DNA of 55,863 bases from Methanobrevibacter sp. (GTDB lineage: Archaea; Methanobacteriota; Methanobacteria; Methanobacteriales; Methanobacteriaceae), in the NCBI RefSeq assembly GCF_017432245.1, contig NZ_JAFRJO010000082.1:1-55863 (forward strand). The letters are read 5' to 3'. The notes beneath the pieces are model-generated. The model searched no databases and had not been told where the DNA came from. It worked only from the letters and a program-made list of their open reading frames with translations. Both the position numbers and the translations under genes were made by a program. Positions 22,443 through 23,590 of the stretch are shown here, in pieces. Every line of letters starts with the position of its first letter. Position 1 is the first letter of the stretch.

Positions 22443-22516
22443 TGCAGCTGCCGGGATTCGAACCCGGGTTGTAGGCTTGGAAGGCCCAAGTAATAACCAG
22501 ACTATACCACAGCTGC
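22443..22516 (-). tRNA. tRNA-Gly (anticodon TCC)
   Basis: The minus strand folds as a full cloverleaf: acceptor GCAGCTG/CAGCTGC, anticodon stem TGGGC/GCCTA with loop CTTCCAA (anticodon TCC), and T-arm CCGGGTTCGAATCCCGG. The discriminator is A and CCA is not encoded. It lies 11 bp after a second tRNA-Gly gene with a different anticodon and is probably co-transcribed with it. Confidence 0.96.
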
Positions 22517-22527
22517 GATAAAAAAAG

Positions 22528-22601
22528 TGCGGCGTCCGGGATTTGAACCCGGGTCTCTAACGTGGCAGGCTAGAGTCTTAACCAGGCTGGACTAACACCG
22601 C
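22528..22601 (-). tRNA. tRNA-Gly (anticodon GCC)
   Basis: The minus strand reads acceptor GCGGTGT paired with ACGCCGC, anticodon stem CTAGC/GTTAG with loop CTGCCAC (anticodon GCC), and T-arm CCGGGTTCAAATCCCGG. The discriminator is A and CCA is not encoded. It is the first gene of a two-gene glycine tRNA unit. Confidence 0.96.
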
Positions 22602-22724: not shown

Positions 22725-23012
22725 TTAAATCAACTGATTTATCAAAGGAAGCATTGATTGAATACCTAAAACAAATATAGCAAATCCACCAATAAACTCA
22801 ATATGTCTGGAATATTTCATAGCGGATTTTGTACCGAAAACACCTATAAACTGCCAAGTAATTACTGCTAATAAACTTAGTCCTGCAACAAGTAGAGGAT
22901 CTGCACCTTCAATTACACCTTGAGCGGATAAAACCAAGTTTTCGATGTTTCCGAAAATTAATAATCTTAAGAAAGGCTTATACTCATTTACGAAATCTTT
23001 AAATGAAGACAT
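22725..23012 (-). CDS. Three-helix membrane protein, paralogue of its neighbour (copy 1)
   Basis: A 95-residue protein starting after GTGATAGA. It has three hydrophobic segments at about 14-34, 39-60 and 70-91. Key conserved features are FGNIENLVLSAQGV in the first and IEFIGGFAIFVLGIQSML in the third. The neighbour at 23020-23286 shares both motifs almost exactly. The layout of an acidic/Asn site in helix 1 and a Gly-rich helix 3 recalls half of a six-helix LysE-superfamily transporter (MntP, TerC or CadD type), but identity is too low to claim it. The two genes are 7 bp apart and surely co-expressed. Confidence 0.75.
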   Translation of the reverse strand: MSSFKDFVNEYKPFLRLLIFGNIENLVLSAQGVIEGADPLLVAGLSLLAVITWQFIGVFGTKSAMKYSRHIEFIGGFAIFVLGIQSMLPLINQLI

Positions 23013-23019
23013 TCTATCA

Positions 23020-23286
23020 CTAACCTCTAACTGCTTCTAGCATTGATTGAATACCTAAAATAAAAATAGCTAATCCGCCAATGAATTCAATGTAAATGCC
23101 ATAAGTTTCCAATTGCTGAGTACAAACAGTACCAATTATTAACCAACAAGTTACGAAAATTAAACTAAAAATTGCTAATTTTAAAGGATTTGCTGCTTTA
23201 ACTACTCCTTGAGAAGCTAAAATTAAGTTCTCGATATTTCCAAAAATAATTAAGGAAATTAATCCAATTGATAAAGCCATACTCAT
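23020..23286 (-). CDS. Three-helix membrane protein, paralogue of its neighbour (copy 2)
   Basis: An 88-residue protein starting after GGTGATTAG, first gene of the pair. It has three hydrophobic segments at about 4-27, 35-55 and 65-83. FGNIENLILASQGVVKAANP and YIEFIGGLAIFILGIQSML match copy 1, while helix 2 has diverged. The likely product is half of a heterodimeric membrane transporter or channel. The substrate is unknown. It lies between a tRNA cluster and a methyltransferase gene, which gives no functional hint. Confidence 0.75.
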   Translation of the reverse strand: MSMALSIGLISLIIFGNIENLILASQGVVKAANPLKLAIFSLIFVTCWLIIGTVCTQQLETYGIYIEFIGGLAIFILGIQSMLEAVRG

Positions 23287-23590
23287 CTAATCACCATTTA
23301 CTTCCTAAGATTAAAGTCAAGTGATATTTTTTATTAGTTATTATTTTAGAATCCGCTATAAAAAAATATCAAATGAAAAATAATAATTAATAAGAAATAT
23401 AATCAAAATTAATCTTTAACATATTTTATTAATCTTTAATCATATTTAAAATTTACTTAAAAAAATTAATTGTTCTTAAAAAGTAGAATAAATATATGAG
23501 ATTATGTATTAAAACAAAAAATAATGAAGAAAGAAAAATTAGAAAGAATTAAAGAAAATAATCGAATATCAATTGAAAAAACAGAATATT
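23287..23590. other. AT-rich intergenic DNA without a gene
   Basis: This stretch separates two minus-strand transcripts. The part near 23500-23590 is A-rich and would give U-tracts after the methyltransferase stop. The part near 23340-23480 is the likely promoter area of the small membrane protein pair. I see no RNA gene and no clear palindrome. Confidence 0.4.

Follow-up and report, generated by a model that had tools for sequence, protein, structure and literature searches.

The gene pair and its setting

The window analysed here is a stretch of 55,863 nucleotides from Methanobrevibacter sp. (contig NZ_JAFRJO010000082.1). Two short genes, A and B, lie next to each other on its minus strand, separated by 7 nt (Table 1). 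The sequence-only reading of this DNA had described two adjacent paralogous open reading frames at 22725-23286, and both are present. Their products are 52% identical over 79 residues (BLASTP, E=4e-27), with FGNIENL, QGV and IEFIGGxAIFxLGIQSML common to the two. A and B are real genes: members of the family are found in 104 of 139 genomes of Methanobacteriaceae, and comparison with congeners gives pN/pS values of 0.06-0.29, which indicates purifying selection. Because GTGAT precedes each start, the second copy overlapping the stop of A, the two genes probably form a bicistronic unit and are translated together.

Table 1. Features of the A-B gene pair in the window (positions are those of the window)
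Feature	Coordinates	Strand	Description
Gene A (upstream partner)	23020..23286	-	Three-helix protein of 88 aa, predicted N-out/C-in, with K/R in loop 1 and the C-terminus
Gene B (downstream partner)	22725..23012	-	Three-helix protein of 95 aa, predicted N-in/C-out, with K/R in the N-terminus and loop 2
GNIENL codons of A (helix 1, residues 16-21)	23224..23241	-	Conserved polar/acidic motif; helix break there in the fusion model
GNIENL codons of B (helix 1, residues 21-26)	22935..22952	-	Seen in sequence and in the fusion model
GGTGAT, Shine-Dalgarno-like	23290..23295	-	3 nt before ATG of A; from sequence
GTGAT, Shine-Dalgarno-like	23016..23020	-	Before ATG of B, overlapping stop of A; from sequence

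The genes nearest the pair are a methyltransferase-like gene and two for tRNA-Gly. The tRNA genes (TCC and GCC anticodons) adjoin one another directly downstream of the pair, at 22443-22601 on the minus strand. Apart from tRNAs, no RNA families were detected near the pair, and a search for a metal riboswitch upstream of it found none.

Distribution and pairing

The carrier genomes belong to four of the 17 genera of Methanobacteriaceae sampled, and when 152 genomes of the phylum were searched with a profile, the result was again 104 genomes in four genera. In a genome-contig collection, the best 80 of 137 relatives all come from Methanobrevibacter, Methanosphaera or unnamed Methanobacteriaceae, and many of their titles name animal guts. 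The family was not found in viral contigs, plasmid records or phage records. A second paralogous pair occurs in the genome from which the window was taken (G000:C16:6221-6746), where it adjoins ribB.

Members of the family occur in twos. Exactly two adjacent members are present at 132 of the 137 retrieved loci, some of which overlap, and A and B are separated by a median of 1 nt. The other five are a natural A-B fusion retrieved twice (L034/L114), an A-B-B arrangement retrieved twice (L017/L121) and a copy at a contig end (L046). At intact loci, A or B is never found alone. The A-B-B triple, at L017:728-1770 on the minus strand (the same place as L121:731-1773), belongs to one genome in which B was duplicated beside its own pair; both B copies keep the N-in charge pattern.

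Opposite charge bias of the partners

The orientation of each protein was assessed from its lysine and arginine residues, by subtracting the K/R count of loop 1 and the C-terminus from that of the N-terminus and loop 2, for 100 unique pairs; 22 sequences that could not be segmented by pattern were left out. The difference is negative in 85 of 86 A proteins (mean -3.2), the sole exception, L082, having a wrongly chosen start, and positive in all 92 B proteins (mean +3.9). These sequences are not independent, but the opposite bias is seen in both paralogous pairs and in every clade sampled. The family thus has what characterizes paired membrane proteins of opposite topology, namely adjacent paralogues with opposite K/R bias. 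When the positive-inside rule is applied, A is predicted to be N-out/C-in and B N-in/C-out, so that the two very probably lie upside-down relative to each other in the membrane. It had been pointed out in advance that an odd number of helices would call for partners in opposite orientations, and that a shared topology would speak against this; the charge bias of the loops is opposite in essentially every sequence.

A natural fusion and the age of the duplication

In a tree of 75 rows, one branch (98/90) parts all A from all B. The same tree contains the two halves of a natural fusion, one falling in A and one in B, in each case beside an unfused pair from genome G059. The fusion is a single open frame of 196 aa arranged as A-acidic linker-B (L034:1869-2459, minus strand) and comes from a rabbit-gut Methanobrevibacter (isolate Lapin-016, contig CANQZY010000001.1). 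Its linker has 11 D/E in 31 residues, and the K/R counts per segment (0, 3, 0, linker 5, 0, 2, 0) follow the A pattern and then the B pattern. In the sister pair, the tail of A has the same EEIIDEY sequence, and the B gene begins in a different frame. An assembly error could still account for the fused frame. A fused homologue, which the sequence-only reading had suggested looking for, is present once, with a sister pair that is still unfused.

The median identity of A with B is 60%, while the two halves of MntP are only about 27% identical. A and B therefore seem to have duplicated more recently than the MntP halves did, unless the partners were kept alike by gene conversion; frequent conversion is unlikely given the clean split of A from B in the tree. 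This changes one part of the earlier proposal, that the pair represents the unfused state of the repeat in a fused transporter. Pairing, topology and the fusion agree with it, although the partners appear to derive from a more recent duplication of a single unit rather than from splitting an old fused transporter into its halves.

Model of the fused protein

The structure of the natural fusion was predicted with AlphaFold2 from an alignment that included 18 in-frame A-stop-B read-through rows, which keep the halves in register. A mixed alignment of the fusion with separate A and B rows was rejected, since MAFFT placed both partners on one half; the read-through sequences were used instead, as alignment rows only. 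The model (pLDDT 83.8, pTM 0.77) has six membrane helices in two like halves. Helices 1 and 4 are each broken at GNIEN, at residue 19 and residues 122-124 respectively. With three helices per half, the halves of one chain have to be antiparallel if all six helices cross the membrane. The LysE superfamily has a core of six TM segments built as two tandem 3-TM repeats (PMC4608589), and this architecture, with homologous halves, is found both across the pair and within the single-chain fusion. A model of MntP reached a pLDDT of only 68 and was used for helix order alone.

Foldseek searches with the fusion model gave no match below E=1.2 in the PDB and none below E=0.39 among viral structures. Among the weak PDB matches, those with the highest probability are to six-helix halves of MFS proteins, with TM-scores of 0.44-0.48. 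A structural match to an unrelated family, the other outcome that would have spoken against a paired transporter, was thus not obtained at a significant level.

Relation to the LysE superfamily

None of the NCBIfam models matches A, B or the fusion above its cut-off, no Pfam model reaches its curated cut-off with any of the three, and a sequence search of the PDB returned no match for the family. The MntP model (PF02659) gives no hit in A, B or the fusion, and to the TerC model (PF03741) the fusion gives a co-linear match of 13.1 bits (E=0.08) against a cut-off of 27.8. The E-x-G-D-(K/R)-(S/T) motif of UPF0016/GDT1 (PF01169) is absent from all alignment rows, and that family has no Pfam match either. 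The Asp of MDAF/IDAF, found in helices 1 and 4 of MntP, is likewise missing; in helix 4 the Glu of GNIENL is aligned there. Sub-threshold matches to SpoIIIAC, KASH and SemiSWEET were rejected as inconsistent between members, as was a match to PGAP2IP (E=1.4e-4 in one row).

In profile comparison, the fusion profile matches archaeal MntP with a probability of 88% (E=3.2e-6, 131 columns), the Glu of the second GNIEN falling on the Asp of IDAF in helix 4. The best of 60 column-shuffled controls gave E=0.007 and reversed profiles about 0.5. The acidic linker inflates this value: with it removed, E rises to 0.003. The first figure was not taken at face value, and controls at the level of the three-helix unit were used. 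In these, the unit scores 22.7 against the N-terminal half of CcdA, 20.9 against LysE-N, 19.8 against MntP-C and 15.9 against CcdA-C, all in matching register, and B alone scores 27.7 against MntP-C. The 34 membrane windows used as controls reach at most 13.8 (mean 11.2, s.d. 1.4). MntP-N, LysE-C and bacterial TerC are at control level, and a comparison of the family profile with TerC/Alx rows also gave no match. The similarity covers one to two helices (two for CcdA) and is strongest in one. Similar scores come from recognised superfamily pairs in the same set-up, such as LysE with MntP (E=0.004) and CcdA with LysE (E=0.0007). From half scores above all controls and the similar scores of accepted relatives, the three-helix unit can be placed with moderate confidence in or next to the LysE superfamily, though in none of its existing families. 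The kinship first suggested, to LysE, MntP and TerC, is accordingly supported but unproved for LysE and MntP halves, with CcdA to be added, and for TerC there is only the sub-threshold Pfam match.

A probable paired exporter

Gene pairing, opposite charge bias, the natural fusion, the six-helix model and the likeness to LysE-superfamily halves together suggest an antiparallel pair. Probably, A and B form a heterodimer that is an unfused exporter of the LysE-superfamily type, each protein supplying one half of an inverted-repeat transporter. A would be inserted with its N-terminus outside and its C-terminus in the cytoplasm, and B the opposite way. The two would then associate antiparallel into a six-helix unit; the physical heterodimer is what the pairing and the natural fusion lead us to expect. 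Across 20 rows, both partners have the same invariant positions: helix 1 carries G-N-I-E-N-L and Q-G, helix 2 a W and helix 3 GG...LG. In a few relatives H replaces the Q of helix 1. The helix-1 motifs (G-N-I-E-N-L...Q), located at the broken helices, would lie opposite one another about a pseudo-twofold axis and could form a polar, acidic substrate site whose centre is surrounded by two Glu, four Asn and two Gln. The acidic residues that MntP and GDT1 have in helices 1 and 4 offer a comparison. Such a unit may alternate between inward- and outward-facing states, with export as the presumed direction. Since the three-helix unit is in or closest to the LysE superfamily (MntP, CcdA, LysE), the likeliest cargo by analogy is a small cation or polar solute.

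The rival that survives best keeps the antiparallel 3+3 heterodimer and gives it an independent origin outside the LysE superfamily, the likeness in helix 3 (GGxxIxxLGIxxL) being convergence on helix-packing glycines. This is unlikely but deserves weight: no family model is above cut-off, the PDB offers only the MFS halves mentioned above, and the similarity is strongest in a single helix. Against it, four of six LysE-superfamily halves outscore every one of the 34 membrane controls with the register correct, over two helices in the case of CcdA, and an acidic motif lies in helices 1 and 4, as in MntP.

A related and tentative suggestion, which has perhaps one chance in three, concerns how the pair arose. 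It may be a young inverted-repeat transporter still forming in gut Methanobacteriaceae: one three-helix unit gave rise to two copies, which adopted opposite topologies; the pair was itself doubled, and in one lineage it was fused, possibly independently of LysE-type proteins. If true, a single archaeal family would be repeating the path by which LysE-type 3+3 transporters have been proposed to originate.

Genomic context and further alternatives

A same-strand gene follows the pair within 60 bp at only 15 of 76 loci, and no conserved operon that would indicate a substrate was found at these 76 loci. In one Methanobrevibacter clade, at 10 of 80 loci (L090, L095, L098, L099, L103, L104, L106, L108, L109 and L117), a CDP-glycerol glycerophosphotransferase gene (PF04464, E=3.7e-74) lies 7-34 bp downstream of B, and in most cases there are dTDP-rhamnose genes upstream; an operon for a surface polymer is possible there. 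The fusion and four of its relatives adjoin glycosyltransferase genes. It is on these arrangements that a different function could be based, in which the pair, as a scaffold or flippase helper for instance, would be an accessory membrane subunit of cell-surface glycan synthesis rather than a general solute exporter. This is improbable, as most loci lack adjacent glycan genes. Outside the PF04464-linked clade and the fusion the pair stands alone, including in the window, and the pair next to ribB is also without glycan genes.

The same genomes already have an ordinary MntP. Replacement of LysE by the pair was considered and rejected: LysE-family genes (PF01810) score above cut-off in genera that lack the pair and in no others, but the comparison is confounded by phylogeny, and most non-carriers also lack LysE. 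A 741-aa membrane protein of the ABC-2 type (PF12698), long and repetitive in its middle part, was observed near the pair in 13 loci (e.g., L063, L092 and L100), in varying orientation.

That A and B do not pair, each being homodimeric or working alone in its own orientation, is very unlikely. The one A-B-B locus would fit such an arrangement, but the absence of solitary A or B from intact loci, the short or overlapping spacing and the natural in-frame fusion all argue for partnership. SemiSWEET dimers are parallel, and parallel three-helix bundles of this SemiSWEET/PQ-loop kind, hinted at by sub-threshold NCBIfam matches in 8 of 19 rows (best E=0.0055; fusion 14.9 bits against a cut-off of 80), are hardly credible given the opposite charge bias of A and B, the lack of any solved SemiSWEET among sequence matches and its absence from the fold matches listed.

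Comparison with known paired transporters

Precedents for the LysE-type pair proposed here exist in UPF0016/GDT1, DUF606 and the paired SMR proteins; what is new is that the family is archaeal and that its partners have diverged unusually little. In MntP, the best profile match, 3+3 helices of similar length are joined by an acidic central linker, an acidic residue is present in helices 1 and 4, and helix 6 has GGxxLIxxGIxxL. MntP differs from A and B in being one fused gene with far more divergent halves, and in having Asp in MDAF/IDAF in place of Glu in GNIENL. TerC/Alx also has an inverted 3-helix repeat (PMC4608589), and the co-linear sub-threshold match of the fusion is the other point of likeness; TerC/Alx is absent from the phylum sample. 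The DUF606 proteins and paired SMR proteins (YdgE/YdgF) are adjoining paralogues of opposite orientation like A and B, and fused forms are also found in DUF606, but they have five and four helices respectively, carry other motifs and were described in bacteria (PMC3962082).

A 2014 study named only DUF606 and UPF0016 as families that include both pairs and fusions of the same inverted-repeat unit (PMC4067407). The family described here adds another, with archaeal members, a gene order that fits fusion, and fused and unfused sisters in close relatives. With it, the duplicate-invert-fuse route can be tested on small proteins, and the fusion captures one step in the evolution of symmetric transporters. 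It also marks an uncharacterised, mostly host-associated membrane system present in most genomes sampled from the four carrier genera.

The closest parallel is UPF0016/GDT1 (CaCA2), itself of the LysE superfamily, which occurs as singletons, pairs and fusions, the pairs having been found in that study only in cyanobacteria (PMC4067407). The cyanobacterial pairs resemble A and B in being adjacent genes for proteins of three helices each, with opposite K/R bias and an acidic motif in helix 1 (PMC4067407), and the fused six-helix relatives have an acidic, cytoplasmic central loop, as is predicted for the A-B fusion. In contrast, A and B have a different motif and no singletons were seen; no GDT1 match was obtained in the phylum sample. 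In the UPF0016 pairs the N-terminus of the 5' gene product and the C-terminus of the 3' gene product are cytoplasmic (PMC4067407), and the A-B order is the reverse. Since both the C-terminus of A and the N-terminus of B are predicted to lie in the cytoplasm, the two genes can fuse directly, as they have in one lineage.
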